A stretch of DNA of 64,000 nucleotides from positions 13,435,951 to 13,499,950 of the forward strand of contig NC_134035.1 of NCBI RefSeq assembly GCF_964204645.1, in the 5' to 3' direction. Position numbers and translations under genes: made by a program. A model generated the notes under the pieces. That model made no database searches and was not told the DNA's origin. It saw only the letters and a list, made by a program, of their open reading frames with translations. Below are positions 4,880-63,705 of this stretch, one piece after another; position 1 is the stretch's first letter; each line of letters starts with the position of its first letter. Origin of the DNA: Tubulanus polymorphus (lineage: Eukaryota; Nemertea; Palaeonemertea; Tubulaniformes; Tubulanidae).

Positions 4880-5022
4880 GGGCCGGTTCCATAGTGAGGG
4901 CTTAGACTTAAGACCGTTCTAAGACCAACTTAGTTCTATAGCAAATCTAACAACTTAAGACCAGTCTTATTAAAGATTTAACACCGCTTTTGGTCTTAAG
5001 TCTTGACTATGGAACCAGCCCC
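4880..5022. mobile_element. MITE family A copy
   Basis: About 143 bp with terminal inverted repeats. It begins GGGCCGGTTCCATAGT and ends ACTATGGAACCAGCCCC. The interior carries the family signature 'gaccaacttagttctatag' and 'aatctaacaacttaagacc'. No ORF. Related copies lie at 15.5, 15.6, 39.2, 40.5, 40.9 and 63.5-63.8 kb. Confidence 0.85.
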
Positions 5023-9063: not shown

Positions 9064-9810
9064 CGAGCGATTTGACAGATTAGATCAGTCTAGATCGTGA
9101 CCAGATCCGCAGCAAGTTCGACTACAGGAATAACTCTCAAAAGTCGCGTCATCCGTAGTTCTTATAGGATTTATATTCTTCATTATAACGAAAGACTTAC
9201 TCACCACACAGACGAGCAAGGTTTGAATTCTTTCATTTTTTCAAAGATAATTTCAATTTTTCATGAAATACAGTTTGATCGTAGCGAAACAAGAGGTCGA
9301 CTATCACGTGCAACTGGAATTTCTACTCGAATTTATTCTCGAATTCATGAAAACGTTTTTATGATGAAGAAATTGAAGTTAAACTTTTCCATGGGAATTT
9401 TCAAAAATTTTGATTCATACACAATGAAGTCATGTGAATCTGATCGCCGTGGACTTAGAGTTCATGATCTGATTACAAACGTTGAAGCATTTCTTAGTTT
9501 TTGTAATGTTGTTTTGATACTTTGCGTGGTGCCAAATCCATCTAATATATTATATTTGAACGTATGAATCAGGCGGAAAATTAACATAATATTGTAACAA
9601 TGCTTTGAGTCTATATAAATTGTGATATAAAAAGCATTGAGCTAATGGTTAACTCGACGAAGCAATGTCTATAAGGATTAAGCTTAACCAAACGTTGAAC
9701 ATGCCACAGCTCAGGTTGTGCAGGGATTTTATATCTTTACAACAAGGACTCGTTAATCTATTAGTAAACTCATCAAAGTTATCTATAATCGTCTTATCGA
9801 CTTGTTACAG

Positions 9811-12800
9811 ATGTTGAGACTCAGCGAACCGACGACATTATCCTCGTCATCCAACACGAAATCCGAACTGATGAAGAAAAAAGCGAAGAAGATCGTGATG
9901 AGAGCTCGTATGAAAAAACTACACAAACGTGAATACTCGAAACTACGAGCGATGGTGCCGGCCGTGGCCAAACAGGAAAAAGTTTCTAAGGTACAGAACA
10001 AACGACAATTTACATATATAACAGAAATCATCAGTGGTTCTCTCCGCCTGACTAAAACATGGACCCTAAAATCTAAGTGTTCTGGATGCAGTTTTACAGT
10101 TCTTTAAGTTTAATATTTGAATCTAGAGTAGAAAGAAATATTATCAGAAAAGAATTGATTTAACTAAGGGCTTAAAATCTAACTCGCAACTAACGAAACC
10201 GGGTCCAGTTCCTGCGGTCAGTATTTGACTGATATGGGTTTACAAACCTATCTTAACTTAGGCCAAGTACAGGAGCTGGGTTCACATGGATTCTGCCATC
10301 GTTAGAACTTCAGTTTTTTATATCTTCAGTGACTTTTAACTTAAGGGATCGGTTCCGTTCGTATAATCTCAGAAATGGTGTCAAATTAAACATTTTGTTT
10401 TTAATATATTAACTATATCTCAGAAGCTGTACGATAACGGTATTTTGAGGGTTAAGTCGTGTAGGTGTGGAAATGGTGTTGAATAGCGTCAAAGTTCACG
10501 TTTAGTAGTAATTTCCTCAGCTGTGTTGATTTCATTTCAAAAACCGATTATTATTCAAGTTAACATCTAGTAATGGATCTATTATTCCAGGATTAACTGT
10601 GAGAATACGACTACAAACCGCTCCTGTTATTGAGTTAATCCCGCAACTTAATCTTTACGTAATCACTATTCTATAGAACAGGGAGATAGATATTAATCCC
10701 TTTTTGCGTCTTGACTCGAATTAAATGAAGTTTTAATGGATTTCAATTCGTGCAAATACACGATTAGTGAATGTACACTCCTAGCTGATTTCTACGCGGT
10801 TAAACCTTTCTAATTATTTCCTTGTAATCGACATAATCTAACATCGTGCAATAGGTATAATTATCTATTTGTACCAACCCCTATAGCCCGCACCCATTGC
10901 GCAAAACTGAATATCGCTTTCTTTTTTACGAACCTAGAAAGTTAATTTGTAAAACACAATAGTAGTCGATTAATAGTTCTGCAACGTTACATCATTTCAA
11001 ATGTAAAGAATGTTTTGTTGTGAAACATTGTACGAGTACAATGTAAAATAGTGTAAAATGAATGTTTTAGAAGAAAATCTGACAGGAATTGCTCTAGGGA
11101 TGGTTATAAATCTCAACCAGTTGGCAACGGGGGTCTAAACACTGAATATATTCATACAACTTATTTTACATACACGCTGAGACCAGATCCGTTATTGTGA
11201 TTCCAAATAACTCTAGATAACAAAATACCCCCCAATAATATCCCCTGTTCGCCGGGTAATATTGTATCAAGCCTATTGAATTTCTATAATAACCAAGATC
11301 CACTTTTACCACCAGTGATGAGTCAATTGCGTTGCTAGCGCTTCGTGCAGTAGTCTATACGCTCTCCTTAAGTCTGATCTTATTGGACTGTAAAAACAAA
11401 TCTGTCCAACTTGATGAATATCTAAGTTAGATGTTACAGATATTGTCACAAAATATATCGACAAAAATCTATCCGAGTTAAATGGATATTTCATTAATGA
11501 GTTTATCGAATCCGACTTGTTCATCTATTACAATGCAAGATAAACTAAATCAAATAATCAATTTCAAATTTGAAAGATATACTGCTTATTTAATTGGCCA
11601 TTAGTAGATTTTGCTTGGGAAGCACTTTTTTTCTCATAGGCTCCACGTACGGCGCCGCATCGGATCGTGGGAAATATACGATTTTTTCTATAGAGTATTT
11701 GTTTCGGATTTTCTATGTGCGTTCGGTCGAGTATACGACCGCGCACCTGTGTCTATTGTTGAGTTGGAATTTCGGCAAATTATCCTTGTGTCAATTTGTA
11801 TATTGTATTTGCACGACAATAAGACACATCAGTTTACGGGGTTTGTGTTTAAGTTGTAGCTTGCGGGTGATCGGATGATCGCGGGTCTTGTCACCTCTGA
11901 CCCTTCTCACAGTTCTGGCACCTTACATACAGCAATCAACACCAAACACACAAACACCTTTATTCGAGGTGTTAAAATAGATAATTGTTCGCGCCGTTGT
12001 TTGCGCGTAATTAACGGACTGTTAATTACTGGCACTAATTACTGGATCAACACGACATGTCGCCAGGTACCGAACACCTGGACGTCAGTTGAAAATTGTG
12101 AAGTTTGAGATGAATTGTTTCATGCCAAAATTGTTTGCTTCTTGGAGACGATATAAAGATCCAACAATGATAAAGAAAGAAATGTAATTAAAGAATCTGG
12201 GCCCAGTTGCTCAAAAGTTGGTTAAAGATAACTAGCTGTTAAACACCATACTAACAATGAAATTTCAATTGTCACTATGTCAACTATCCAGCTATCCAGT
12301 GGTTAACTCTAACCAACTTTTGAGCAACCGGCCCCTGGAAGTCAAGAACTGTTAAACTGGATCCATGGCCCAGGCTTCGATTCTGATTTAAAGGTCGCAG
12401 TTTAGAGGTCGAGATTACGATAGATTTCTCTAGTTTTTTTTCTCTATTATTTACAGATTACGGTGATCGAAGAAGCGATAAAATACATCGATGAATTACA
12501 CAATGCTTTGATAGAGCGATTACAGAACAATAACAATAACCAATCACAATCAGCAACTCTGTCGCACAGCAACAGCAACAGCAGCAGTAGTCAAACCGGT
12601 AAGTAAAGAGTGTTCAGTGATTACAGACTCCGAAGTGTGACGTCATCGGTGGATGAGTTTTAATGACTGTTCAATACTTTCACGACTCTGACCGTTAGTA
12701 TCAGAGATATCGTCTGGTCGCGAATTGATAATTCTATGACTGAAGGCAAAGTATATGACGATAGGTAATTGAAATGACAGAGGAAAATAGTTTCCACTAA

Positions 12801-14740
12801 GACCAATTCGACTTCCCGCGGCGGTCCCGGTGCAAACGACTCAGCTCAAGAGTCCATTTCGAGATTTTGATATGATATTTCATTTTAACGATGTCAGTCA
12901 AAAATTCCCACACACACCACCGGCAGTCGTGTCGTCTGATGACAGATGGAACCATCAAAATGTCGTATCATTAATAGGTCAAATGCCAAACTTGAACCTT
13001 GCGATCGTGGGAACCACTTCCAGTTGACAATAGCCGGTCTTACAATAACCACACAAATCAATAGACTTCACTCTAAAAACCGGGCGCGTTTTACCTGTGA
13101 GCGATTCAACTTAGAAAACGTTTTGTTTTTCGGTCGGCGACCGAGTCAATAAACAATATATCATATTGTCAAAAATCACGATAGACACTGAGATCAGACC
13201 GCGGCTCTAGAGAGCCTAAGATCGTTATATCATCGCGGCACAGATGGTCAGAGAACTCTGAACCGATCGCAAAGTAGTACAGTGGGAACCCGTTCGGGCC
13301 ATGGTTCCCACGGGAGGACCTACGCCCTCGCATTCAAAACCCGAGAGGATGACACGTGACTTTTCATTTTTTATCTATAGTCAACGGCGTGTCTATAGCA
13401 TCGTGACGTCACACTGACTTCCTGTTTCTCCTATCTGTCTTTAAAGCAAATACACGGGGCCTTGTTGTACAGTCAATAGTTAATACCAGTCTAAACTCAT
13501 TTTGGTTCTATAGAAAATCTAACAACTGAAGACCAGTCTAAGCTCGTTTTGGTTCCGTAGACAATCTAACAACTAAAGACCAGTCTATGGTCATTTTGGT
13601 TCTATAGCCAATCTAACAACTGAAGACCAGTCTAAGCTCATTTTGGTTCTATAGCCAATCTAACAAATTAAGACCAGTCTAAGCTCATTTTAGTTCTATA
13701 ACCAATCTAACAACTGAAGACCAGTCTAAGCTCATTTTAGTTCTATAACCAATCTAACAACTTAAGACCAGTCTAAACTCATTTTGGTTCTATAACCAAT
13801 CTAACAACTTAAGACCAGTCTAAACTCATTTTGGTTCTATAGACAATCTAACAACTTAAGACCAGTCTAAACTCATTTTGGTTCTATAACCAATCTAACA
13901 ACTTAAGACCAGTCTAAACTCATTTTGGTTCTATAGACAATCTAACAACTTAAGACCAGTCTAAACTCATTTTGGTTCTATAACCAATCTAACAACTTAA
14001 GACCAGTCTAAACTCATTTTGGTTCTATAACCAATCTAACAACTTAAGACCAGTCTAAACTCATTTTGGTTCTATAGACAATCTAACAACTTAAGACCCG
14101 TCTAAGCTCATTTTGGTTCTATAACCAATCTAACAACTTAAGACCAGTCTAAACTCATTTTGGTTCTATAACCAATCTAGCAACTTAAGACCAGTCTAAA
14201 CTCATTTTGGTTCTATAGACAATCTAACAACTTAAGACCAGTCTAAGCTCATTTTGGTTCTATAACCAATCTAACAACTGAAGACCAGTCTAAGCTCATT
14301 TTGGTTCTATAACCAATCTAACAACTGAAGACCAGTCTAAGCTCATTTTGGTTCTATAGACAATCTAACAACTTAAGACCAGTCTAAGCTCATTTCGGTT
14401 CTATAACCAATATAACAACTTGAAAGTCCATCTTAAATAAGATGAAGTATAATCTACAATTGGATTTAATTCCCGGCTGTGCGAGACGCCTTATTTCTAA
14501 GAAAAAATGAATTACATGCACGTGAAATGTGTTAGGTACATTATCTTTAATGTAGTTTTTGATTATGTACTTACAGGTTCTCCTAGTCAAACAGAAATAA
14601 ACCAACGTATGTTACACGAGGTGGTGATGAGGAATCTGGCTCCGTTAAACAGTTTAAAACAGAACCCGGTGTGCGAGAAATCGAGAAAACTACCCAGCTA
14701 TCTAACCAATCAAAAACTATCACGCGCCGATCACACATAG
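9811..14740 (+). CDS. Atypical basic helix-loop-helix protein
   Basis: Three coding exons join in frame: 9811-9990, 12457-12598 and 14577-14740, giving 161 residues. The acceptor cag sits directly before the ATG at 9811, and both introns have clean GT/AG ends (GTACAG, GTAAGT; TTACAG, TTACAG). Residues about 22-83 form a bHLH: a Lys/Arg-rich segment, helix 1 ending LRAMVP (45-50), a loop, then KVSK and helix 2 (ITVIEEAIKYIDEL, 61-74). The exon junction falls inside the HLH after VSK. The Glu of the basic region that reads the CA of the E-box is absent: the aligned position is Arg in MRARMKK. The VSK-helix 2 start recalls Id-type proteins, yet a basic stretch is retained. A Gln/Asn/Ser-rich linker (84-107) follows. 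The exact bHLH family is not recognised. It could be a weak DNA binder or a dimerisation regulator. Intron 2 carries the 47-bp satellite. Confidence 0.85.
12198..12338. mobile_element. MITE family C copy in bHLH intron 1
   Basis: About 141 bp bounded by near-perfect terminal inverted repeats of about 26 bp: GGGCCCAGTTGCTCAAAAGT at the left and its complement ending 'gagcaaccggcccc' at the right. No ORF. The end sequence matches the unit of the 23-bp array at 31.3 kb. Confidence 0.85.
13480..14425. repeat. 47-bp satellite, about 20 copies, in bHLH intron 2
   Basis: The unit is 'accagtctaaactcattttg' followed by 'gttctataaccaatctaaca' and 'acttaag', 47 bp. The period was measured from 13811 to 13858. 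Two variants, 'ctataacc' and 'ctatagac', alternate irregularly. Every part of the unit is found inside family-A MITEs, so the array is an amplified MITE interior. It lies between bHLH exons 2 and 3. Confidence 0.92.
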
Positions 14741-15483: not shown

Positions 15484-15605
15484 AGTTCGTTCCATAGTCG
15501 TGGCTCAGATTTGATACCAGTCTAAGACCATCCTAGTTCTATAGTCAACAATCTAACAACTTAAGACCATTATTTAGAGTCTCAAGTCTCGACTATGACA
15601 CCCAT
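15484..15605. mobile_element. MITE family A, decayed copy
   Basis: Starts near 'gttccatagtcgtggctcag' and keeps the 'ccagtctaagaccatcctag' and 'caatctaacaacttaagacc' interior. The right end 'gactatgacacccatccc' is degraded. It abuts the next copy directly. Confidence 0.7.
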
Positions 15606-15609
15606 CCCT

Positions 15610-15749
15610 GGGGCCAGTTGCACAGTCGTGATTTAAGTCCAAGAGTGGTCTTAAATCTTGAGGCTGGTCTTATGTTGTTAGATTGGCTATAGAACTTAAT
15701 TGGTCTTAGACTGGTCTTGAGTTTAAGCCATTACTATGAAACCGGCCCC
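15610..15749. mobile_element. MITE family A copy
   Basis: 140 bp. Left end GGGGCCAGTTGCACAGTC, right end 'actatgaaaccggcccc'. The interior is in the reverse sense to the preceding copy ('gttagattggctatagaact'). Two head-to-head family-A copies therefore sit side by side. Confidence 0.85.
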
Positions 15750-24082: not shown

Positions 24083-27000
24083 TTATATTCTTCTAACTAC
24101 TGCAAGACAATTTCCGCATTTGGGACACGTATGTTCAACGTCTAAAGCACTGTCAACACAGCATGGAATACAAACGCATGGCCAACAGCTGCGAAAATAA
24201 GAATCCACAAAAATAAAAACAATTATTCATTAATTCATTCTTTTCATAATACACAGAACTAGATATACACGAAAATTAACAACTGACTAGCGATTCCATT
24301 TTCGTGTTCATAAAATCAACCAAAATTAGAATCGGTAGAAATAAAAATCGATGAAATTTAATGTTTATTCAAATATTCAAATTGTAAAAAATTGTTAACG
24401 CGAACACGCGGTATGAAAATCTATTAACTGGCACCTAGGAACAATTACTGCTTGAATAATCAATATTCACAATTATACATAATCACAGTAATAACACTAA
24501 CAGTTACACGATGTGAGTCTTAATGAGTTAAAATTTGCGTTAGTTTTCAATCATTTCTGAACTCCTTAAAGAGTTTTTAGTACTAACTCGCAACTGTGAA
24601 GCAGGTCCAGTTGATTATTTACAATCATTCATATCAAATCTTTGAAAAAATTTTGTTAAGTAACAAACAGAGATGATACTGGAAGGAAGGAGAAACTGAA
24701 GCAAGGGTGGGTGGGATACTGAAGGGAGATATTGAGAAGGGGGAGGGAGATACTTAAGGGAGTGGGACACTGAAAGAAGGGGAGTAGGATACTGAAGGAG
24801 GTGAAGTGGATACTAAAGGGGGTTTGGTGGGGAGGGGTGAAGAGTTAGGGGTATTGTTCAATTCAGTTAGTACGATCTGGCAATGATAGGGTTAAAACGT
24901 ACTCAACAATGGAAACCATTTTAATCTGATTCAACTGAATTAATTTCTGGAAGCTGAACATTAGAAATTCAATTACAAAACGGAATCAAAAATGTCGGTC
25001 GGCTTCCTCACAGTAGACATAGTGTCACCATGTATCATTGGTTTATACAAGTTTATCTATTAGATAGGAGGTTCCCATGTAAGGGTATCCCTTACCCTAT
25101 TACAGTAACTGGTGTTTTTTATAGAAGGTTCTGTTCCGCTGTTTTTGTCACAGATGTTTTTAATGGACACGGAAAAATAAAACCAACGTAAAATCAATTT
25201 ATATTTCATTATTTATAATATTACACGTATCAATATCGTGACTGCAGTTGGTTTGTTGGTTTGTAGTTTTACAAACCGACCGACCGACCGACTGACTGGC
25301 TGACTAATAGAATGGGGCGAAATTGATTTAAAAGTAAATTTCATATTAAATGAACAAGAGAACATTGAAACAGCTGTAAGAATGAGAGAGTGAGGGAGTG
25401 AGTTAACCAGCTGTTTGAGGTGCTACGAGTATATCATACTCAATTCATAGATAATTATTATTACATGAATTTAATTTCGAGGTTCTCAGCTACTGAACAC
25501 GACGTATTATTATAGGGAGGTCTCCATCACTGCTGATGATGGTTTCTGGAGAGAGTCTTGTTTTCATTGTGTCTTAATTTTTGATATAATCAATTTCATT
25601 TTTAAACTTTTAGATTTGTAAATAATCGGTTTTAATTTCTTTACGTATTGTCCACGTCTGAACCAGAACATATCAGTCATCCGCTAGAAATTGTCCAAAC
25701 CTTTGATGGAAACACTTGAATCATTTTCTAGTTTATTCCATGTCGTATTGAACATGGTACGAATTCTATTTTGTCGCGTGACACGGCATCAAAATAGCGA
25801 CGGAACTGATGTTGATATTTCATCGAGATGAAAATCGGCAAAACTTAAGTTTTTTTCCAATATAGTGATGAAATTCACCTACGGATCTAATCGCTATTTG
25901 CTGGACTGGAAAATCTACTTTTTCTATTGCAACAAACTGTGTGGAGGGGGTGATGTTAAAACTCACCCGAACAAACAGAGCAATCCTGATAGAATCCACG
26001 TAAGCGCACCCGGAGTATACGTCACTGTGGTTGTTACTGTTGCTAAGCAATTCGGACACTTGATCGTTGTTGGGTGTGGTCCGAACGGTACGTGATGGAT
26101 CACTACTGGTTGACCTAGATATAGGAAAAAAAATAGTTTGTAAATATTGAAAAGAATTATGATGATTTTAGAAACATTGAGGAATCTGATAATTGTGGAA
26201 CTGAATCCAAAACTGTGGCATTCGGTCAGGTAACTGTGGAACTGGATACAGAACTGTGGAATTGGATCCTGAACTGTGGAATTGGGTCCAGAACTGGAAC
26301 TGGGTTCAGTACTGTGGAACTGAGTTCAGTACTGTGGAACTGGATCCTGTACTGTGGAACTGGGTCGAGAACTGTGGAACTGAGTCCAGTAACTGTGGAA
26401 CTGGTTCTAGTTACTGTGAAACTGGGCTCATGAAGAAGAGCAGAAATATGAATAAGAGTCAATAGTTAGATAAATATAGTGATGTATCAAATACAAACCT
26501 GCAGGAACTGAACCCTGATAAGAGTAAGATGGCGGAGGTCCGAATCCGGTTTTTTCGGTGTCTTGCGCTTGATAAACTGGTGGTGGTTCATCAGGGTAAG
26601 GGGGTCCTTCACCTCCAACTGCATAATAACAATCATTACAAATATTACAATATTTAGCCAGTTACAGCTGCCCTTGAAAAGGTCGTTGAATTCTAAACTT
26701 GTGTTTGTAATAATAGATTGATTAAAAAGATGAAGAAAAATAATTCTGTGGAACTGAGTTCAAGGGTAATTTGCGTAGTCATCACTTAGATTTAAGACCG
26801 GTCAATTTATCTTTAGTTCTTTAGTCAATCCCCATCTACTACAACTTAAGATCAGTATTTTAAGATTTCAGATTATTTTTAGACTTAAGTCAAGACTGTC
26901 GAACAACTTTCAAACCAACTCACGAGAAACCCCGTGATAAGTAGGTAATAACGAGGGCCGCCGGGCCCAGAATAATCCATACTCAATCTATATTCAAATT

Positions 27001-31000: not shown

Positions 31001-34000
31001 ATTTAAAGTGACGATATGTTTTTAATTGTGTTTATCACGAGGCCCTAAAACAATATATTAAAGATAAGATTCGACCCGTGGTTATATATTTCATTTAATA
31101 GGTACAAGGTCAATGTTCCTTTGTGATATCATGCAATTTTTGTCTCCCGTTTAGCAATGAATTGAACTACGTAAAAAATTGAAGCCGACTTTTTTTCTGA
31201 TATTTTTTCAATTGCACAAACATTGGTTAAAATCAACCATCAGATAAATACAGTTTTGGCCATCTTCTGAGCAACTGGGCTGTAAACTTCTGAGCAACCG
31301 GGCTGTAAACTTCTGAGAAACTGGGCTGTAAACTTCTGAGCAACCGGGCTGTAAACTTCTGTGCAACTGGGCTGTAAACTTCTGAACAACTGGGCTGTAA
31401 ACTTCTGTGCAACTGGGCTGTAAACTTCTGAGCAACCGGGCTGTAAACTTCTGTGCAACTGGGCTGTAAACTTCTGAGCAACTGGGCTGTAAACTTCTGA
31501 GCAACTGGGCTGTAAACTTCTGAGCAACTGGGCTCGAAACTTCTGAGCAACTGGGCTGTTAACCTCTGAGCAACTGGGTCCTGATCTGAACAACTTCACC
31601 TAAACCCCAGCAGCTCTTCTGACCAAGCGAACCCATAAACAGTTCTTTAAACTGACTCATCTTGCAACATAGTTTGATTTTTGTTGTTATTTTCAGGCAG
31701 TTTTATGCAGTGCATTTGTACCCTTTTATTGCGGTTTGATTCCTCCGACGTTTGAAGGCACGGTAAGTTTAATCTATCGACCCCGAGTGTGAATTCAACT
31801 CACTGCAACTTTCTAACAATTTCATCGTTATGTGATACCTACAAATATCAAAATCATTCAAATAGTATCGATATCTCAAATTATCAATCTCACACTGATA
31901 TACCGTGCATCTTTATCTCACACAGCAATATCACACGGTATCTCAAATTATCGTTGTATCTCAAATTATCAATATCATACAGCAATATCGCTGTATCTCA
32001 AATAATCGATATGATGATAATAGAAGAATTTGTGTGTTGTTTTTTTGTAGCGATATGTCGACGGTAGTTTAAGTGATAATCTACCGGTATTAGATGAAGA
32101 TACGATCACTGTTTCCCCGTTCGCAGGTGAAACTGATATCTGCCCGAACGATCATTCGCCGTTTAACTTTCATATCAACCTAGCTAATACTAGTCTACAG
32201 TTCACGTCGAGGAATCTGTATCGTCTGTCCCGGATTCTATTCCCGCCGCATCCTGAGATTCTCAGCGCTATGTGCAGACAGGGATTCGACGACGCGCTAC
32301 GATTCCTTCAAAATAACAGTAAGTTCATTTCATTTCATTCATAATATGAACAGAATACATATATACAGAAATCATAAACCTGCAGGGTTCTTACGGGTCG
32401 GAAATCAGGGAATTCTGAGTTTTAAGGAATTTTTGGTGTCTTGTTGTTCTTGCTGGTGACGAGTGGCACAAGAAACCTCTTGATAAGAAACAGCTCCCGC
32501 TGAGGATATCTTATGAAATAATCAGAGGGAATTTGAAATTCTGGTGTCTTGTTGTTCTTGCTGGTGACGAGTGACACAAGGAACCTCTTGATAAGAAACA
32601 GCTCCTCACTGAGACTATCTTATAACTAAACCGGGGAATTTTAATTTTAGGTCTCTAAATGATGTTCCCGCTCGGGAATTCAGGATTTATTTTTCCCTGC
32701 AGATAAATTACGATACCGAAAAGAAACATTTGATTGATTTTGTGAATTTCAGATTTGATTTCATGCGTGAAACACGTCAGTATTGTGTCGTGTATCAGAC
32801 CTAGAAATGACTCGTACTCAATAGGATCAGACGAGGTCGAACTATCTATCGACGATGATGACGATGATGATGATGCCGATACTGCTGTTGGTCGTGTTGA
32901 AGAGGAGATGTATGATGAAATAGATGATGACGGATATATAACGAATCACTGTGATATTGTCAGCTGTATTGACTGTAGGCATCGCCAGAGAAAAGCATTA
33001 GACGACACTTTACCGGAGACAGTATTGGCAGGTAAATAACCACCAGGGGGCGACACTTTACCGGAAACAGTATTAGCAGGTAAATAATCACCAGGGGGTG
33101 ACACTTTACCGGAAACAGTATAAGCAGTTAAATAATCACCAGGGGGTGACACTTTACCGGAGACAGTATTGGCAGGTAAATAACCACCAGGGGGCGACTC
33201 TTTACCGGAAACAGTATAAGCAGTTAAATAATCACCAGGGGGTGACACTTTACCGGAGACAGTATTAGCAGGTAAATAACCACCAGGGGGCGACACTTCA
33301 CCGGAGACTGTACTAGCAGCAGAATCCAGTTGACTGAGTCATGATTGTGCAATTGGGTTCCTGGATCCAGGTTCACAATTGTGTCATAGATCTCAACTCA
33401 CAACTGTGGAACTGGGTCCGTTACTTCATTTAGAGAGAAAGGGGTATTGAGTGCAGACCCCTGCTTTCCCGTTGAGGTCGCCATTATAAAAACCGTGGTT
33501 TGAATTAGAAAATTGTTAATATGATAATAATAATGATGATATTTGATATAATTTCAGTATTACAAGCTGCTTGCACTAAGAATGGTATTTTAGCTCATCT
33601 TTACGAAAGTCGTATTTATCGATTAACGGCATTAGCTTTCACTCCGATGGTTTTACCGTTAGATTACGTGTATAACTTCACTATCAGGTGCGTTTTTATT
33701 AAACGATTCCACAATATCAACAGGGTCCAGTTCGACAGTTGCTACAACCAGTTCCACAGTTATGGTGGACCCGGATCTGCAGTTACTGGAGGAGCCAGTT
33801 CCACAGTTACTGGTGGATCCAGATCCACCATTTGTCAGTAAAGTTTGACTGCAGAGTTAAAATCAACTCATTTCCGATGTTTAGACTCTTAAAGTCTAAT
33901 TTCAAATCAAAACTGTAGAACTCGATTGAGGACCAGCAACAATTAAAACGTCCATTTATAAACTAAATTCTAAGTGGGCATCATGTTCATAAATTACAAA

Positions 34001-36492
34001 TATGCAAAATCTAGCTGATTTCCCCCTCACCCTCACTCAATTTTCAAAACCCCCAAGTTTCCCTCACTTGATAAATATAGTTATTGTGTTTAAATTGTAG
34101 ATTTCTCCACTGGTTACCGACGCTTCCCGACGACAGTTTGTGGCTGTTATCAGAATTTAAAGATGTTCTACAATCGTTGTTGTATTATCTGAAACATCGA
34201 CACAACTATAAAGCCAGGTATGTTGAATTAACTTTAACCCAAGAGAACCCAAGACCAATTGTAACCGCTCAAAAAATTATGAAAATGCATTTTATTGCAG
34301 CTATAGCATTGCAAAGTACAACCCAGGTTTCATTTTTTAAATTTGGGAACTTTGACCTACATTTTGAAATTTCGCGTGTTGCTGGGACAAATATGACCCC
34401 ATGGGTTCTCTTGGGTTTTAACTGCCATCAATACCTTTTACTCACATAAATAATCCTGCTAAAAATTAATACCTTTAATGTAATTTCATTCATTTAAAGT
34501 TTTGGCAGAATTCGCAAAAATGTTTTTCACAATACACATGCTTCTATTGTGTAATGGTATCATGCTATACTATTAATTTCAATGACTCATTTACCCGATT
34601 TAACTACAATATTCAGTGGTAGCGAAAGCTTTTACTCTGAAAAAATCTATTTGACCTTTTTATTACTGTTTGTCTTTAAGTTTTAGTCTAGTATGTGAAT
34701 TTATCATATCTATAATTCCTTCTATGGACTCCATCCAGTGTCCGAAATAAACTTCCGTGATTATGTATTATACAAATTTTCAGTTTGGCAGTCCTGTTGT
34801 TAGGCAATGACGTGTCCCTAGAAAGTTTTTTGATGCGTAATAAAATAGATGAACATTGATCTGTGTATCAGATTCCGAATTGTGTTTACTGTTTAAACTG
34901 TTTTGACCATGCCATACCAGGAAGTAGATAACATTTTATTGAGCACTGAATTCATCTTTAAACCTTGTTTATCACGAATGAGACACAAATATGTAAATTT
35001 AGTTCAATTTATTTCAATGACCTTTTTGTATTCTGGGTTATGATATAAGACTGGGTCCAGAACTGTAGAACTGGATCCAGAACAGTGGAACTTGGTTCAG
35101 TAACTGTGGAACTGGATCCAGAACTGTGGAAATAGGCCCAGAACTGTGGAAGTGTGGGTTTAGAACCTTGGAACTGGGGCTGTATTCACGAACCACTGTG
35201 CAAATGGGTCCAGAGCTGTGTGTGGAGCTGGGTCTACAACTGTGGAACTGGGTTCAGAACTGGAACTGTGCTATAATTGATTTGTTTAAATCTGATTTAT
35301 TTTCAGATTTCGTTGCGAGTTGGATATAACAGAAACGGATTGTCCCGATTCGTATCATCACAATAAACGCCGTAAAGTGAATATGGGATTCGCTTTAAAA
35401 TTCCACTCCAATAGAAACTTGGCTTCGTCTCTGGTGGATCTGGCGGCGTCTCGTAACGAACTGACGGTGATAGATCAAAATCATCGTCCAATAGACTGTT
35501 TACATCAGATAGAGAAACAGGTAAAAATCTCCCCTCGACCGCCGTCCCCCCCCCCCCCCCTGTACAGCGGCGGATCTAGGGAAATTAAATAGGCCATGTT
35601 CGGAAAGAAAGAAAAGAGGCATCCTCGGTGTTCAGAAATACATCTGAAAGGTTGCGGTTTGCGAAAGTCCGACGGCGGATGAGCGTCAAATGTTCAGGTC
35701 ATTACGATCTCTGTCTTGACGATAAATGTAACCTCATTGGGAAGGCAGGGGTCCAGACCCCCGAGACCACCCCCTTAAATCCGGCCCTGCTTCTGATCTC
35801 AGTTAAGTCACTGTTTACCACAATTACCGTGCGTTACATTTGAAGTTGATTCTTGATTTAACCCCTGGTAGTACAACCCAAATTTTGGAGGGGGGTGGTA
35901 TCTGCAGGCCTGCTTGCATAATTACCAAACTTCAAATCGGGAATAAATCGATTTATTGATTTTATAGGTGATAGACGAGCGTCGTCATGGTAACAAACCG
36001 GTAAAAGAAAGCGTCGTCGACCAATCGTACGAGACTTTAGAACGATACGTCAAACAGACGGACGAGATGGATACGATAATGGCTTATTATTATCTGGACG
36101 AAGAGCAACAAGTCGTGAAAGTAACGGAAATATGCGGTGCACCACCTGCTCACGTGCCAGAGGTGGAATCTAATAGTCACATGAAACACTGCGGCGACGT
36201 GTGTGACGACGAGGAAACACTATTACACGGCAGCGTTCCGGATCTAGTCCGCGGTCCGAAGAAATCCGGTCGCGAATATTTAGATATAGATATCGGAGAC
36301 GTTGACGATGAATTATCGTTTATCGCTCGTCGTCATAGCGCCAGTTGCGTGTCGAGGATCGCGTTCCTACAATTAGAAAATAAACTACGCGCCAACAAAA
36401 ATAAACAACAACGCTACGTGACGTCATCAGTGACGTCGTCGGTTACGTCATCGGTGAATAGTTTAACACAGGAAGTGACGTCGTGGACATAA
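28021..36492 (+). CDS. PNPLA2: Patatin-like phospholipase / triglyceride lipase (ATGL type)
   Basis: Nine coding exons: 28021-28207, 29704-29936, 31697-31762, 32051-32318, 32753-33031, 33558-33687, 34101-34217, 35307-35520 and 35968-36492; 672 residues, all phases consistent. The patatin domain begins at residue about 10 with GCGFLG (15-20, oxyanion loop) and GASAG (45-49). Catalytic Ser47 and Asp166 (in VDGSLSDN) fall at the same numbers as in human ATGL. LGPx[27 protein letters not shown]-like and RNLYRLSR blocks also match PNPLA2/3. Exon 5 encodes an acidic insert (Asp285-292). Exons 6-7 match the conserved region after the catalytic core. The C-terminal tail (499-672) is unlike vertebrate tails and has three VTSS repeats (649-660). 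In known members the enzyme hydrolyses triacylglycerol at lipid droplets. Which vertebrate paralogue is closest (PNPLA2 or PNPLA3) is not resolved. The ATG at 28021 was chosen because the open frame upstream lacks another ATG. Confidence 0.94.
28378..28626 (+). other. Unassigned open frame in PNPLA intron 1
   Basis: 82 codons open to a TAG stop with no ATG at the front. The composition looks protein-like (charged, with Trp and Cys), not low-complexity. I recognise no domain. It could be a transposon coding remnant or an unused alternative terminal exon ('gcaag|at' precedes it). Confidence 0.2.
29941..30290. repeat. Tandem segment duplication in PNPLA intron 2
   Basis: A block of about 145 bp beginning 'tgtaagggaca' and holding 'gccaaatcactagaaaaaat' and 'taacagggtcaatccctatt' occurs twice (about 29967-30085 and 30168-30282). 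The 'cagtaatctcttctat' lead-in is also repeated. A short direct duplication within one intron. Confidence 0.8.
31266..31578. repeat. 23-bp array from a MITE-C end, in PNPLA intron 2
   Basis: About 13 copies of 'gagcaactgggctgtaaact' plus 'tct', exact 23-bp period (31271 to 31294). The unit aligns with the terminal repeat of the family-C MITE at 12198-12338 (aacttttgagcaactgggcc). A 23-bp unit opens all three minus-strand frames, producing the SEVYSP-type repeat peptides; not coding. Confidence 0.93.
32395..32630. repeat. Direct duplication in PNPLA intron 4
   Basis: The block 'ggtgtcttgttgttcttgct' through 'gataagaaacagctcc' appears at about 32434-32492 and again at about 32541-32606 with few changes. 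Intronic tandem duplication. Confidence 0.75.
33004..33310 (+). repeat. 48-bp minisatellite built from exon end plus splice donor
   Basis: About six 48-bp units (33004 to 33052 measured). Each contains the last part of PNPLA exon 5 (gacactttaccgga...gca), the donor and the first intron bases. Intact CAG|GTAAAT donors occur at 33032, 33080, 33176 and 33272; copies 3 and 5 carry CAGTTAAAT and are broken. The unit length is a multiple of three, but each copy reads GGT AAA TAA, so use of any downstream donor would end the protein at about residue 347. Confidence 0.9.
35049..35262. repeat. Second MITE-B-end array, in PNPLA intron 7
   Basis: About ten degenerate copies of 'aactgtggaactgggtccag'. 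Same unit as the array at 26.2 kb but on different flanks, so it was amplified independently or transferred. A shorter, more diverged cluster of the reverse complement ('ggatccagttccacagttac') lies at 33721-33836. Confidence 0.85.
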
Positions 36493-36710
36493 TCTATAGA
36501 CACGCCACCTATTGTTATTCTTTTTTGAGCGGTAAAAAAGTTTGTAATTTAATTTCTTGAGTTGTTTGTGCGTTGTGTTCAGTTCGGTAGCGAAATGCGC
36601 CGCTTTAAAGAATAACGTGACTGAATATGGAGAGGGATGAATGAATGAAAATACCTATCTTAATACAATCATATGTGCTATTATTAAAATCAGAAATTCA
36701 TCTATCATTG

Positions 36711-37105
36711 TGAAATACAGTAGACTCTGTCTCTTACTGCAGTAAAGTTGAGACCGGTAAAATTCTACCCAGAGTTGGTGTCAAATACTGAGTAAGAGTT
36801 TGTGAAATACAGTAGACTCTGTCTCTTACTGCGGTAAAGTTGAGACTGGTAAAATTCTACCCAGAGTTGGTGTCAAATACTGAGTAAGAGTTTGTGAAAT
36901 ACAGTAGACTCTGTCTCTTACTGCAGTAAAGTTGAGACCGGTAAAATTCTACCCCGAGTTGGTGTCAAATACTGAGTAAGAGTTTGAGAGATACAGTAGA
37001 CTGTGTCTCTTACTGCGGTTGTGACTGGAAAAATTCTATTTACCCCGAGTTGGTGCCTAATGAGGGTAGACCTTGTTTGTCCCTTACTGCAATATAACAA
37101 TGAGA
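36711..37105. repeat. 92-bp tandem repeat downstream of PNPLA stop
   Basis: Just over four copies. 'tgaaatacagtagactctgt' starts at 36711, 36803 and 36895 (92-bp period), with a diverged fourth near 36987. It lies 220 bp after the stop codon and so probably within the 3' UTR or just past it. Confidence 0.9.
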
Positions 37106-39132: not shown

Positions 39133-42071
39133 ATGTGGCGCCTCGTCCATCAACTACTGAAAATTCGCGTATTACAACTTATGGTTTTATTTGATAGTTC
39201 GCTGACAGTAACGTCAGGTAGGTAAAAATACAGTGCCCAGTCGCACAGTCGCATGGCTTCGATCTCTAACACCAGTCTTTGACCAACTTGATTCTTTAGC
39301 CAATCTAACAACTAAAGATCGGTCTTAAGATGATTTAAGACCACTTTTGGACTTCGGTCACGACTGTGCAACCGGGCTCAGGGTTCATAGGTCCATAAGT
39401 TCTACCAAAATTCGCAGTTGTAATTTCACCCTCGTGTTAAAACATTTTTACTTATTATGAACTAATTTTTACTCAGTCAATACTAAACCAGTCCGACAAC
39501 TGTGGAACTGTGACGATGGAATAAGAATATAATGAAACATCATTTAGATACAGCTGCGGATGATGGAATATTTTTGTGTCTATTTCCGCAGAATGTCGAG
39601 TCGAAGATCCAGTAGAATTAGAAGCGAGGGCGGCTCCGCAATTTCTACAGTCTCCAAATTATCCGTTTTTCTATAAACCGTACGTAATTATAACTCCTTC
39701 AGAAAATATGGCGACCTCCTAGATCCCCCTATGACATCACTAACGCACTGTCCAACATATCTTACATTCTGATAAGGCTCAAGCCCTGGTAAGCGAGGGT
39801 GGTGGGTTATAACGGGTTTTTGCCGAATCTGATATTACAGTTTGACCTACTGTAGATGGATACTGAAAGCAAAGGAGAGTCACGTGATAACCGTTGAGGT
39901 ACTCGACACTGATACGGAGGGCAGTCCGACTTGTAACAAAGACTTCATCGAGATCAGAGACGGTACGAATATATCAATCGCGATTTTAAACTATATCAAA
40001 GTCGTTTTGAGGCAGTTAATTTGATTTCAAATTGAAAGGTTCCACGATTCTGAATTTGACATACAATTTTTGGATCCATTCCCGCTAGTAAAGATTTGAC
40101 TCCTTTTTAGTTGTAAGTAGCTTCATGAACATGAGAACAATTCTACAGTGTTACAGTGTATAAATATGCTTTTGAGTCTTTTGAAAAGACATTATTAGCA
40201 AATATTTGACTCCTGATAAAAAAATTAAATAATTTTGATTTAGATCCAAATCTTGTTGATGTTCATTTATTTCACATTGAAAGGTAAATACCAGTGGGAC
40301 TACGCGTTACGTCGCTGGTGCGGAAATAAACTACCAGCGAATTTTACCGGCTACAAAGACGCCATGTTTGTGACGTTTAAAACGGACGACAGTGAACAGG
40401 GGCGTGGCTTCAGATTCAAATACTGGTCGACACCAAAACGTAAGAAATAACTTCTAGCAGGGATCGATGGATCAAGGAAAATTGGGGTCCAGGGGCCGGT
40501 TCCATAGTCGAGACTAAAGTCCCGAAAGTGGTCTTAAATCTTAAGACTGGTCTTAAGTTGATAGATTGGCTATAGAACTAAGATAGTTTTAGACTGGTCT
40601 TTAGTCTAAGCTATGGCTATGGAACCGGCCCCAGAAGACAAGAAACGGCATTTCTCGAATTAAGCAGCCATCATATCAATGGCCACCAGCGGGGCTCTCC
40701 CTCGGTATTAGACCTTTTTGTAAAAATGTCAAAGCAATTTCCGAATTTGCAGGTTTTCTGCGATCTCTGTCTTGTCATAAAGGGCAACCTCACTGGAAGG
40801 GGCCCATCCCTTAATTCCGTCCCTGTTCTAATGCTCAAAACATTTCGAACCAATTTTAACAGTTATTAGTTTGATTAACTAGACTAGCCTACTCTTAATA
40901 AATCTATGTCACGACAATGCAGCTGATTCCGGTTGGACCGGTTGCATAGTCATGGCTTAGACTTAAGACCTGTCTAAGACCAACTTAGTTCTTTAGCCAA
41001 ACTAACAACTTAAGACCAGTCTTAAGATTTAAGACCACTTTTGGACTTAAGTCACGACTGTGCAACTGGCCCATTAGCGGCCTTTCATCCCTCGAAAAGT
41101 AACCTATATGGAAATTCATACATCAGCATCGTCTAGTTGGAAACGGATGAAGGTGACATGTGTCACTTCAACGAGACTTTCATATCATTCTAATTCCAGA
41201 TTTATAAATATAAGTCACGACACCTGAATCGTGGAGTTTTAGATTAGTGGCCTTTCATCCCTCGAGGGGATCTGTACGCAATAGGGAAATCTATCAGCAT
41301 CGTCTAGTTGGAAACGGATGAGGGTGGCAGAGTCTCGCGATGCCATCGGGTTCGATTGCCAGCGATGGAGGAACATGACAAGATGCTATCCGGTTTGAAG
41401 CCCTGCCGACGAAGGTTGAGCTTCAAACCGAAAAAAAAACGCGCCATGTGTCACCTCAACGAGACTTTTATATAGAATACAATATATTTCATTGCTCACA
41501 AAATTACATTTGCTTAGAGCAAAAAGACAATACAACATGAATGTCAATCCAATCCAATACAATATGTATCACTAGAACGATGACCACACTCAAACGTGGT
41601 GAACGGATAATAAGATAAAATCCCACTATTTACAGATTAAAAGAATTTAAAAACAAGAATTTATTTATTAAATCTCTACGATGATGACGATGATCTCTAG
41701 GGTGAGTTCGAAACGTCGTGTCTTTTATATATTTAAGATTTAATAAATAAATTCTGGTTTTTAATTTCTTTAATCTGTAAATAGTGGGATTTTATCTTAA
41801 TATATATCATTCTATAATTTCAGATTTAATGCAATATAAACAGGTCGAGTTCCGCGCAGTGAATTATTTCCTGATGGCGCTGTCGGCCACGTTACTGGTG
41901 TCAGTGTTAACCACGTGTACAGTCATCTGGATAAACCGATCAGCTTCCAACTCGCAACGGCTCCTGCGATTTAACAGAAAAATATTCAACACTCCCGCCG
42001 TAGATTCCTCGGTTTCGGTCGACCAGACGCACAGAATAACGATTCATTCCGATTGCGAGTCGAACGCGTAG
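39133..42071 (+). CDS. Single-CUB, single-pass membrane protein
   Basis: Five coding exons: 39133-39217, 39592-39679, 39841-39962, 40284-40439 and 41824-42071, giving 232 residues with consistent phases. The N-terminus is hydrophobic and signal-like (1-28, includes LQLMVLF). One CUB domain covers about 30-146: Cys30, the SPNYP signature, TYC62RW, C89NKDFIEIRDG and WC111G, so all four CUB cysteines are present. A transmembrane segment follows at about 163-187 (YFLMALSATLLVSVLTTC), then a 45-residue basic and Ser-rich cytosolic tail. CUB domains mediate extracellular protein interactions; partner unknown. It is far smaller than NETO or LRP12 proteins and matches no named protein I recognise. 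The last intron carries a foldback element ending 23 bp before exon 5. AATAAA lies 134 bp after the stop. Confidence 0.88.
39235..39377. mobile_element. MITE family A copy, CUB intron 1
   Basis: About 143 bp. Ends GCCCAGTCGCACAGTCG and CGACTGTGCAACCGGGC. The interior 'ttagccaatctaacaact' is present. No ORF. Confidence 0.8.
40492..40632. mobile_element. MITE family A copy, CUB intron 4
   Basis: 141 bp with the cleanest ends of the family: GGGGCCGGTTCCATAGTC at the left, and GGCTATGGAACCGGCCCC at the right with one mismatch. Confidence 0.92.
40935..41072. mobile_element. MITE family A copy, CUB intron 4
   Basis: About 138 bp. Left end 'ggaccggttgcatagtcatg', right end 'cacgactgtgcaactggccc'. 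Interior in the opposite sense to the copy at 40492. Confidence 0.85.
41083..41470. repeat. Tandem duplication with nested SINE-like insert
   Basis: A segment of about 110 bp ('cctttcatccctcga' through 'caacgagacttt') occurs at 41083-41180 and again from about 41251. In the second copy about 115 bp (41329-41445) interrupts it. The insert has a B-box-like 'gggttcgattgcc', an 11-bp hairpin (cggtttgaagc / gcttcaaaccg) and an A9 tract near its right end. The uninterrupted first copy defines the pre-insertion site. Confidence 0.75.
41609..41800 (+). mobile_element. Foldback element FB4, CUB intron 4
   Basis: Inverted arms 'taagataaaatcccac...' and '...gtgggattttatctta'. The loop holds GAAACGTC (41710-41717) preceded by CGATGA and a short CTC/GAG stem, a decayed form of the core seen in FB1-FB3 and FB5. 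Ends 23 bp before the exon 5 acceptor. Confidence 0.7.
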
Positions 42072-52400: not shown

Positions 52401-55400
52401 TTAGGGATGAGGAGAGAATCCCACAATGATAATAAAAAGTCCGAAAATGAAACTTCGAGACAGTAGTTTATTTCAACGTTTATTTCTCAGTATTCCTGAA
52501 GATGACTATTAGGATATAGTCGAAACGTTGAAATAAACTACTATCTCGAAGTTTCATTTTCGGACTTTTTATTATCATTGTGGGATTCTCTCCTCATCGC
52601 GTCAACACGGATATTGTGTTTTACCTATCGTGATACATCATATTATATTGTGGGTGGATAGTGTTGGATATACTGCTGGTGGATATACTGGTGGATATTG
52701 GTAGATATACTGGTGGATACTACCGGTGAATACTGGTAGATACTGGTGGATATTGGTAGATAGACTGGTGGATACTACCGGTGAATACTGGTAGATACTA
52801 CTGGTGGATACTACTGGTGGATATTGGTAGATACTGGTGGATATTGGTAGATACTGGTGGATATTGGTAGATACTGGTGGATATTGGTAGATACTGGTGG
52901 ATATTGGTAGATACTGGTGGATATTGGTAGATACTGGTGGATACTACTGGTGGATATTGGTAGATACTACTGGTGGATACTGGTGGAAACTGGTGAACAC
53001 TACTGGATAATGGTGGATACTGGTAGATAGTATACCTCACAGGTTTCTACGGGGTCGACACCCTTTCGCAGACGATCAGCCACAGATCTGGGTATCATCT
53101 GATACAGAAGCTGATCGGTGCGTTTCATTTCCACGTGAAGACGTTTCATAAACTCCTCGAGTTTACGAGATTTCTGCTGCTCCTGGTCCAACGCTAATTT
53201 CAACTCGGCCGACTGTTGCGTACCGGCTAGGATCAGGTCACGTGACGAGTCGTGCATACTCAAGTCGTTGATGTACAAACCGGCGTTGAACATATCATTG
53301 ATATCCTTCATACTGAAAAGATCGAATAAAATCGAATTATTCATTGTAGAAATGATTGGCTATCAGTTAATTAGCTAATTGTTTTTTTTTATATATGCAA
53401 GTATAGTTACAAATGTGTTAGTTACTCAAACATGCATCCAGTCCAAATGTGGACTTACAAGTCATTCTACTTTTTGAAAAAGAATATTCAACTTTTATTA
53501 AAATTCACCAAACCGAATTAGCGGGTTTGATGTTTTTTTCCTTTAAAAATTTAAAAAAGTCTAAAAAGTCTATGGGGACATATCAATAAGTCATTCTTCA
53601 CATGAGACAGAACTTCGGCCAAGTAAGTTTTTTTCGAACAGGATTCGAACCCATAAGCCTGGAATCGGGAGACCAGCGACCTGTGACCTAAACCACTCGA
53701 CCACTGCGCTATTTCAAAGGACTGCCGAGGAATGGGATACTTACACAGGACACCCGAGGAATATAATACTATCCCAATCGTTCATGTACATCATTTGACC
53801 TTTCAATTTCAAACATTTCAAACTGCCTTCTTCCGTTTCAGACGATGACGTCATCTCGTTGTCCTTGTTAAGAAGAGAAAAGCTTATAGTTAATCAGAGG
53901 AAATTATTATAATTAGCTGCAGACTTCAGATTGTCAATATATTTCAAACGTCCTGGAGCAGCCTATTACTTACACAATAGATGAATCAGAATACACGTAT
54001 TCTATTCAATCGAACGACGATCTATTTTGCTCAAATATAAGTCAGTTTTTTTCAGTGAGCTGATTTATCAATAAGTAAGACATTATTAAGTATTCTTTCG
54101 AATAATCTCTGGACCCAGTTCCACAGTTGTCAGTTAAGATTTGACTCAGATTCAACTCATTGAAAATGAACTGATTTAAGTCAGCGTTAACTCTATAACT
54201 CGCAACTGTGGAATTGGATCCTGGAGATTAATATAGAATCATTCCGCCCAAAACTCCAATCAAACAAGAATATATAAGGTGTCATTATTGCTGCTGTTAT
54301 CGTCGCCTTTCGGAAGCATCCCGGGGATAGATTTAAACTAGTTAGTTAAAGTACATGATTAGTACCAACAATTCATTAAGACTAGTCTTTATGAATTGTT
54401 GTGAGTACTCCTACATGTATGTGTTACCTCGTTATTACAGCCATTCACAAATGTATCACTGTTCCTTCTATCCCCGCCTTTACCGTTTCCGATTGAGTGA
54501 CTACTGCACAAACTACTGGAAATCAACAATCAACAAAATATTACATAAATACATTGCACCTGATTTTCAGACTCTTTTTATTCTTAGATTATAATTTCTA
54601 CTCGAAGTTTTCCTAAGTTCCCTTTTCGAACCAACATCGTGTATAAATATTTAAAAAAAAAATAAAATAACAAATTGTATCGATTATTTATATTGTATGT
54701 AAGGTTCACGAAAAATAGATATCTATCTATCTTCGGTCGGTAACAGTTTATTTTTGATGGATACCTTTTACTGGATCGTTTGTATTGAGAAGAGGTCGGA
54801 GACTCTGATGCCCGAAACGGTTTCAGAATACTGAACTTCGCGAACGCGTTGTGAGGTTTCCGGCATTTTTCTCTCTTAAACCGAGCTGTAAATAATAAGA
54901 ATTTTAAATTGAAGTTTATTCAGACACAAAAGTTACCAGTACAGAGCAGAATACAAATATATACAAATATAAATCAGTCATTAATGTACAGTAATGTGTC
55001 AAGGATTCATCCCAAGCCAAACAAGGCTGTATTCAGAGAGGGGATGAACCCTGAAAACTGATAATGAAAATGACAATAGATTATAGAAGCGTTATGATAT
55101 TCAAAATGATACCGAGTATTGTGACTGGTCCGTAAAAGAAAATGTACGTATAAACACTGAACTGATATTGCCAGTGTATTCTCCTGGTACTCCGAGCCCA
55201 ATCGCAGTATCCGGAGTAAGTTCTTACTGTTGGCAACAGAACAGTGGTAACGTTTGAAGAACTCATCATTCAATGCTCGGCAGAGACGTGGAATATTCTT
55301 CCCTCAAACATGTTACGCCCCTTTCAAGATGTAGAATAATAGTGTGTAATTTTCTGAATGGAAATGTGCGCTCCGCTCGCGAGCTGCAACCTGTAAATCT

Positions 55401-58400
55401 GAATCAGTATCTGACACGACGTGTCCTGGAGCAGAGTTACTCTGATGGAATCTTTTGATTTGATTTGATTTCGTCACGCTACTGGTTTTTAGCTTTTGGT
55501 AATGACGTGAATTTTTATAGAATATGTTTTTTTTCACATCTGAGTCGCATCAAAATCGACGAAAAAAATGTTACTCGCTAAAAATGAACTTCTGACGATA
55601 AATTCTATGGTGTTCGATACTTTAAAAACGAACGAAAAATCCCAATCATCAGTGACTTCCTATTAATCGTAGAGAACTGAAATCTGATGTTTTTATCGGA
55701 ATCTACGCGCGTCTTGTCATTCAAATACACAATGAATAAGGCCTGTTTGATAGCTTGGTTTACGGGAACCGCCACCCGAAATTTGAAGAAAAGTCAAATA
55801 AAAAAGAGAATGTTTTTTTTAAAATTTTCATTCCCGCCTGTGGAACAAATTCAGTGAAAAAACGAGCAGAAAAAAAGTTTAATCTAGAGACTTATCCAAA
55901 TGATAACTTACGCATAGTAAATTGAATTAGATATACAAATTGAGACTCAAAAATGGAGATGACTTCAGTAGTGTGACATCTTATCCAAATAATGATTTAC
56001 GTACACTTTGTAAATTGTATTGAAAATACATATCAGGACTCATGAATAGAGAAAACTTCAATAATGTGATGACTTTATTTGATGATGATAATTAAACGAG
56101 TTTTGCTGATTATAAGATAGTTTTGTATGAAATGTTGTCTGTATGAGATGTGTGTTTGTGTTTGTAGTTGTTGCTCCGTGCAAAACGTATGATGCATTTA
56201 TCAGATATTATTTCAATGTCAAAAACAGATTTCTATATTCTTATATGAAAATAAACAAAATTCATAATTCAACGTGATCGTCATTTTGTGTCTTTAAGTT
56301 TATGCGAAGAGGCAGGTGTTTTACTGGAGCACCATCTTCACCGCGTCAGTAACAACTGATACTGATTCAGAGTGGTGCTGAGGATGTAGTACAGGGGTGT
56401 CCCGGGTTCGAACCCAGTAATTACTGATACTGATTCAGAGTGGTGCTGAGGATGTAGTACAGGGGTGTCCCGGGTTCGAACCCAGTAATTACTGATACTG
56501 ATTCAGAGCGGTGCTGAGGATGTAGTACAGGGGTGTCCCGGGTTCGAACCCAGTAATTACTGATACTGATTCAGAGTGGTGCTGAGGATGTAGTACAGTG
56601 GTGTCCCGGGTTCGAACCCAGTAATTACTGATACTGATTCAGAGTGGTGCTGAGGATGTAGTACAGGGGTGTCCCGGGTTCGAACCCAGTAATTACTGAT
56701 ACTGATTCAGAGTGGTGCTGAGGATGTAGTACGGGGGTGTCCCGGGTTCGAACCCAGTAATTACTGATACTGATTCAGAGTGGTGCTGAGGATGTAGTAC
56801 AGGGGTGTCCCGGAATCGAACCCAATAATTACTGATACTGATTCCTGGATGCTGGATAGAGGATGTACAGGGGTGTCCCTGGTTCAAACCCAGTAATTAC
56901 TGATACTGATTCAGAGTGGTACTGAAGCTGATTAAGAGGATGTTCAGGGGTGTCCCTGGTTCAAACCCAGGAATAACTTATACTGATTCAGAGTGATCCT
57001 GACGCCGAAGGAAGCACTATCATTCTGCAGATTTTAAAGTTGGACCGCGGCAGGCCGGTTTGTTACATTGTAACTGTTTAACAGCGATTCTGAATTTATT
57101 ATTTGATAAGCAATAAACGATAAAGTTCATACATGAATCTACGACGGTCATTCCGATACCGATTTTACGCCGAATCATCAGCGTTTCTACACCAGTAAGA
57201 TTTCCATAATAAACCCAAACTATTCCAGTAAAACCGAAATACTGTAGCTTTTCTAGAAATAGCACTGATTCGCAGGCGATGTACACGGCCACTAATGCAA
57301 ATGACATTCGCAAGACACGCAATTCTAATGTGTTAGTGGCGCGGCTTTTAGAACGAGTTTTACCGACACTAGAAACTTTAACAACGATTAAAACTACGAT
57401 TAAAGATATATTTATAACACCCAGTGAGACCATGGGGGCCATGATGCTGATTGTTGTAAATATCCAGCCTTGCGAGCGTCTTTTCCACTCATTAACAGAC
57501 GCAGGGTAAACTATAACATAGGATTGAATAAGAGTTGGGGGGTTGTGAATACAGGGTACTGGTATATAGGTTCGATCCGGTAGAAATATCGCAAAACAAA
57601 AACAAAAACTAAACAAACATAACACACCTATTATAGAATCCACAACTTTTCGAGTCCAAAACAATCTAGATTTTAGCGGGAAAACTATAATAACGAGTCT
57701 TTCCAAACTGACGAGAATGACGCACCAGTTTCGTATCAATTGAAACGCATAATACGGCGCCAATGCAGTTATAATGAATTCCCAACCATAAAACCAATCA
57801 TCCAAACGTAAAATGACGTCACCTATATGTATATAGAGATGCATTGCGCGTAGAGGGTACATCACGAATACGGTTGTCGAATAACATATGTCGAAAATAG
57901 CGAGAACTTTGATCAAATAATACGCTTCATTGTTCATCTTCTTTAACACTAGAAGCGTTATGATATTCAAAATGATACCGAGTATTGTGACTGGTCCGTA
58001 AAAGAAGATGTACATATAAACACTGAACTGATAATCCCAGCGTATTGCAAAGCTACTCCGTACATAATCGCAATGTCCCGAGAAGGTTCTTACAGTTGGC
58101 AACAGAACAGTGGTAACGTTTGAAGAACTCATCATTCAATGCTCGGCAGTGACGTGGAATATCATTCTCTCGTCATGTTACGCCCCTTTCAAGATGTAGC
58201 ATGATAGTGTGTAATTTTCTGAATGGAAATGTGCGCTCCGTTCCGAGCTGCGACCTGTAAATCTGAATCTGTATCTGACACGACGTGTCCTGGAGCAGAG
58301 TTACTCTGATGGAATGGCGCTACCACGAATAAAATAGCTCAAACCTTTCAACGACAACTTGCAAACAACTTTCATCTCTCTTGTTTGCTTCTATTTCCTT

Positions 58401-61662: not shown

Positions 61663-61735
61663 CTGGCCTATGGTCTAGTGGTTAGTATGTCCGGCTAGCG
61701 TGCTCCAGGTCGTGGGTTCGAGTCTAGCTAGGGTT
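61663..61735 (+). repeat. tRNA-derived SINE head
   Basis: A box 'tggtctagtgg' and B box 'gggttcgagtc' about 40 bp apart, running directly into the TTAGGG-containing minisatellite. The acceptor stem does not fold. Confidence 0.55.
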
Positions 61736-63704: not shown

Positions 63705-63705
63705 T

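Follow-up and report, generated by a model that had tools for sequence, protein, structure and literature searches.

The window, a stretch of 64,000 nucleotides of Tubulanus polymorphus DNA, spans positions 13,435,951 to 13,499,950 of contig C11 (13,974,185 in length) in an assembly of 267.8 Mb and 77 contigs. An open reading frame at 9757-10107 of its forward strand contains a bHLH exon, covering the basic region and helix 1, and a second at 12424-12606, also on the forward strand, contains the exon for helix 2; the conceptual spliced product of this gene matches the Pfam HLH domain (PF00010, E 4e-6). The next intron, between exons, is occupied by a tandem array of 47-bp units at 13480-14421, for which TRF gives 20.0 copies with 93% matches, 0 indels, and a score of 1562. 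No inverted repeat was found inside the array when one was looked for. Diagnostic positions assign its units to a subtype termed here M, AACCAAAATGAGYTTAGA, also given as AACCAAAATGAG, and their orientation relative to the MITE described below places the array on the minus strand. The first-pass annotation had described about 20 satellite units in a bHLH intron, drawn from the interior of a MITE family present in the window. Both the unit count and the intronic location hold, as do its coordinates and motifs to within a few bases.

The relationship between satellite unit and MITE interior is likewise borne out. BLAST within the window matches the array unit to the interiors of local MITEs at 80-87% identity (E 1e-20 to 1e-13), among them segments at 63584-63675, 40541-40601, 15658-15718, 40963-41025, and 4908-4967, far closer matches than chance would produce. 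The borders of the array carry a feature that had been missed, namely decayed MITE ends. On the minus strand, a left end and arm of the B-end type lies at 14423-14490 (approximately 66% identity to the consensus; local alignment score 44.5, p=0.0010) and a right end at 13455-13482 (approximately 67% identity; score 27, p=0.0077), with p values drawn from clean, MITE-free genomic positions. Both ends are flush with the array. It therefore belongs to an old copy of the ~140-bp MITE family described below, one whose interior has been enlarged, and is not a free satellite.

End-to-end alignment of 30 one-unit genomic copies yields a MITE consensus of ~140 bp that reads, in order, GGGGCCGGTTCC, left arm, 47-bp unit, right arm, and GGAACTGGGCCC. 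The element is short and non-coding, has terminal inverted repeats and a target duplication, and is predicted to fold, as a single strand, into a strong hairpin (z -5.9). The duplicated target is CWG, with the same W on both sides in 18 of 22 readable pairs (binomial p=0.002), and the terminal inverted repeat starts GGGGCC or GGGCC. The NuwaI group of the PHIS superfamily is defined by CWG duplications and GGG starts (PMC4482050), and both features of the MITE fit this group, suggesting a PHIS/NuwaI-like element within a superfamily that includes PIF/Harbinger. A Helitron or Helentron of the HINE type (no target duplication, A-T insertion, 3' hairpin) was also considered and is excluded by the CWG duplications and terminal inverted repeats. 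PF13359 transposases are abundant in the genome; among the matches listed on C1-C3, no transposase has a listed exact right end of the MITE within 5 kb. An autonomous partner in this group would have a DDE transposase, a Myb/SANT protein, and the ends of the MITE, of which it may share only the outermost bases. About a dozen PF13359 matches have identical scores and open frames of 400 aa (for example C8:821639-822130 and C9:3551940-3552431), and probably represent a recently active Harbinger-type transposon unlinked to the MITE.

Single-unit copies of the MITE were located by BLAST elsewhere in the window at 4880-5022, 15489-15571 (where the match covers part of the copy), 39231-39375, and 40935-41072 on the minus strand, and at 15610-15749 and 40490-40632 on the plus strand. 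A two-unit copy lies on the plus strand at 63518-63703, close to where the first-pass annotation had reported the interior segment twice; TRF detects a 47-bp period x1.9 at 63584-63674, and the units fall at approximately 63582-63628 and 63629-63675, between flanks of CAG and CTG. Its units are of a second subtype, G, AACTMAGWTGGTCTTAGA. Head-to-tail with this copy is a one-unit MITE at 63707-63844 on the same strand, with A ends, a T-type unit, and CTG on either side. Whole MITEs in the same arrangement, which at 63518-63844 involves this pair, also occur at C10:1256692-1257576 (L045), C2:31149030-31149475, and C1:384064-384227, with a period of ~141 bp for one-unit copies and a CTG between neighbours that is common to both. 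MITE ends together with CWG restore the target CCC-CWG-GGG, and copies may therefore insert beside copies.

The consensus of the 30 one-unit copies also contains a short direct repeat around the unit. In T-type elements, two copies of the 11-bp sequence TGGTCTTAAGT lie exactly 47 bp apart: the unit ends in TGGTCTTAAG followed by T, and the identical 11 bases close the left arm exactly 47 bp earlier. The corresponding repeat of G-type elements, AGACTGGTCTTAAGT, is 15 bp long and has the same exact spacing of 47 bp. Slippage or unequal exchange could readily start at such a repeat.

Complete MITEs with both ends were found across the genome with 1, 2, 3, 5, 6, 7, 9, 11, 12, 17, and 36 units, and MITE-to-array expansion is therefore real. 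Two-unit MITEs are common. The largest member of the series, a G-type element of ~1.8 kb at C9:15602113-15603804 (L060 and L094), has 36 units, both ends intact, and CAG on either side, and may be a satellite-length array that moved as one unit. Among 47 elements lying by chance in the flanks of fetched loci, a sample that differs from random genome stretches, 39 have one unit, 3 are degenerate two-unit elements, and 5 have 5-7 units. In one-unit copies, a 55-bp "two-unit" signal was discounted after it was traced to the left arm, which the unit model also matches. The first-pass annotation had reckoned that a lack of other MITEs with 2-5 interior units would speak against its account; complete 2-, 3-, and 5-unit MITEs do exist elsewhere.

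Whole-genome pattern counts, allowing at most 1 mismatch, reveal how differently the unit subtypes are distributed. An M unit is followed by a further unit at 1872 junctions and adjoins an intact right end at 2, the latter figure (with Y allowed) being a lower bound because the strict pattern misses decayed ends. For G, 128 tandem junctions compare with 750 units at right ends, and for T, 3 compare with 96; reversed control patterns give zero matches. M is thus a genome-wide variant found almost only in tandem. The tandem frequency per right end is higher for G than for T (Fisher p=0.0005, although an array contributes several junctions that depend on one another), which agrees with the longer flanking homology of G-type elements; other differences between the subfamilies could also explain it. 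One-unit M-type MITEs are rare, with 2 found by inspection, one of which has no recognisable left terminus, together with one three-unit M copy. The M lineage accordingly has short forms of its own, which might have preceded the arrays or resulted from their contraction. M units reside in MITEs of both end subtypes, A (C10_9873559 and C2_31132539) and B (C8_775798 and C8_1667424), and the unit adjoining the right end of these M-bearing elements is often G or T. Six of the seven differences between G and M fall within 10 bp (p=0.003), and CCAAAA is present in the left arm; our guess, on an alignment that needs gaps, is that M is a chimera whose 3' half came from the left arm.

These subtypes bear directly on the history of the window array. 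The first-pass annotation had read the copy at 63518 as the first step toward the array, and had taken the one-unit, two-unit, and long-array forms in the window as stages of a single conversion. The three structural stages do stand side by side in the window, but the two-unit copy carries G units and the array M units, and in a unit tree (150 rows, 47 columns, poorly resolved) a clade joining them is rejected (AU p=0.0006). Neither the array alone (AU p=0.32) nor the array together with other M arrays (AU p=0.17) is rejected as a clade. Given the differing subtype and the rejected joint clade, the 63518 copy is a parallel early duplication of subtype G and not the ancestor of the array, and the forms in the window are not successive steps of one lineage. 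Growth of the array on the spot, starting at one MITE copy and passing a two-unit stage of the kind seen at 63518, would account for the presence of both forms in the window and sits well with the frequency of two-unit MITEs; the tree result, the subtype difference, and the finding that the best match lies strictly within the array for only 7 of its 20 units make it very improbable. With M spread genome-wide and almost as similar between loci as within one array, the array did not simply grow in place. A better match to some other satellite had been named as evidence against a MITE origin, and formally such a match exists: the array units are 97-100% identical to dispersed M arrays elsewhere, closer than to any ordinary MITE. 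Those arrays are, yet, themselves partly MITE-borne.

The explanation that best accommodates these observations, to which we assign a probability of roughly 0.75, is that the window array is a MITE interior that expanded and was homogenised, that variant M took over and spread, and that the MITE ends decayed. The first duplication would have come about at the flanking repeat, where either slippage or unequal exchange took place. Once at least two units were present, unequal exchange between whole units could have driven expansion, contraction, and homogenisation. Variant M would then have overrun most arrays and spread among loci via transposition of array-bearing copies, recombination between arrays, or both, exchanges that a subtelomeric location might favour. 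Decay of the MITE ends while the array stays similar would finally leave a short dispersed satellite. The opposite direction, in which a MITE captured a pre-existing 47-bp satellite and one-unit copies are remnants of contraction, has a precedent in the origin proposed by Scalvenzi and Pollet for miDNA4, as it is described in PMC12628747 and PMC9659126. It could draw on the overwhelmingly tandem state of M units, their near absence beside intact right ends, and their occurrence in MITEs of two end subtypes. The last 11-15 bases of the unit, however, repeat the MITE's own left arm, such that the unit looks built from MITE sequence, and G and T units are far commoner at intact right ends than in tandem; capture is, on balance, unlikely. 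Assembly artefact or chance similarity scarcely comes into consideration: the copy number of an array can be misassembled, and the analysis was made on the assembled sequence, but hundreds of consistent junctions extend over many contigs and the reversed control yields none.

Chromosomal location, with contig ends taken as chromosome ends, distinguishes M from the ordinary MITE. On C1-C3, to which the comparison is restricted and where the exact matches are listed completely, M loci have a median distance of 0.90 Mb from the contig end, with 73% within 2 Mb; for the right ends of G-type elements the figures are 3.79 Mb and 33% (p=1e-8), and a uniform distribution would put 13% within 2 Mb. Multi-unit G loci also lie near contig ends (median 1.13 versus 3.14 Mb, p=0.0008). 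On C4 and C5 there are no exact M junctions. Duplication of large genomic segments was rejected as the means by which M spread, as the flanks of M loci share almost only MITE-sized matches and no long flanking sequence.

Identity among M units is similar within arrays (0.920) and between them (0.898), in loci that were retrieved with an M bait and whose likeness is raised accordingly; G units are more locus-specific (0.950 within versus 0.891 between). The near equality of the two M values is among the observations that would be expected had interlocus gene conversion or circular extrachromosomal DNA, as opposed to transposition of array-bearing MITEs, carried M units from one MITE shell to another, unrelated one. 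The occurrence of M in both end subtypes and beside last units of type G or T, the concentration of arrays toward chromosome ends, and the lack of shared outer flanks point the same way. Complete array-bearing MITEs with both ends do exist, however, and the 36-unit G copy with its matching CAG flanks indicates that transposition of long copies is possible, leaving the conversion or circle route a tentative and somewhat unlikely alternative. A related proposal, that M is a subtelomeric satellite handed between MITE shells of differing end subfamilies by recombination between arrays, seems rather doubtful; if it is true, a satellite lineage evolves semi-independently of its parent transposon family.

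Under the preferred reading of expansion followed by end decay, arrays should retain traces of their MITE ends, and many do. Among 39 M arrays with at least three units, a left end is recognised in 18 and a right end too in 11 at p<0.01, with ~0.4 expected for each. The other 21 have no MITE end at this threshold, at which decay beyond recognition is indistinguishable from true absence, so that escape of M arrays from the MITE is possible besides decay. Where the left arm of an M array can still be recognised, identity of the units exceeds that of the arm by 0.103, compared with 0.011 in one-unit copies (p=0.0007; units were picked for their resemblance to the bait). Decay of the ends alongside homogenisation of the arrays would produce such a gap. 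Long G arrays do not differ significantly from M arrays in the size of this gap (p=0.14).

This process matches published models for the Xenopus miDNA4 and Xstir elements, and represents a way of satellite birth that has already been described. As reported in the accounts of PMC12628747 and PMC9659126, the miDNA4 MITE of Xenopus tropicalis (Scalvenzi and Pollet 2014) contains an internal unit that is single or arrayed in variable number and surrounded by short direct repeats, and its arrays are homogenised and left behind when the ends decay. By those accounts miDNA4 belongs to Tc1/mariner, unlike the present MITE with its CWG duplications, GGG termini, and PHIS/NuwaI-like character, and it differs as well from a 47-bp unit of several subtypes in arrays biased to chromosome ends. 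The Xenopus Xstir and Xmix elements (Hikosaka and Kawahara 2004), as summarised in PMC12628747, provide a further parallel in the coexistence of MITE, tandem array, and composite, with the tandem unit drawn from MITE internal sequence. For these, two neighbouring elements are proposed to have been joined through a stem-loop, whereas a direct repeat flanking the unit within one element suffices in the present MITE. The oyster elements Cg_HINE and Pearl (PMC7492417) are also dispersed mobile elements with short satellite-like arrays, mostly of few units and occasionally of ~30, but they are non-autonomous Helentrons, in contrast to a MITE with terminal inverted repeats and 3-bp duplications. In the Tetris foldback transposon of Drosophila virilis (PMC4079207), tandem repeats of a DNA transposon similarly give rise to an emerging satellite, although these are located in the terminal inverted repeats according to the description in PMC9659126, while the unit considered here is interior. 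Classical satellite DNA, with heterochromatic arrays of many kb, was set aside as a description, given that the longest array seen has 36 units (1.7 kb) and the window array is intronic.

What is new here is the PHIS/NuwaI-like host, an unusually complete series of unit numbers, and the bias toward chromosome ends. Few genomes are known in which intact MITEs run through the full range between a single unit and dozens, alongside a definite seed repeat, several unit subtypes by which lineages can be told apart, and an assembly contiguous enough to locate expansion. The model of satellite birth by slippage, homogenisation, and end decay thereby becomes testable by counts, according to which subtype expands, how long the microhomology is, and in which chromosome region expansion occurs.

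Other tandem repeats are frequent in the window. Short arrays of different units lie at 26194-26426, 31264-31578, 33003-33319, 35050-35178, 36708-37016, 52670-53029, 56347-57002, and 62266-62442, an abundance which suggests that arrays often form in this subterminal part of the contig. A 23-bp tandem repeat, AGCTAGGGTTAGGGTTGCGACCG, at 61726-61807 includes the telomere-like motif TTAGGG, and the end of C11 is ~0.5 Mb from the window.
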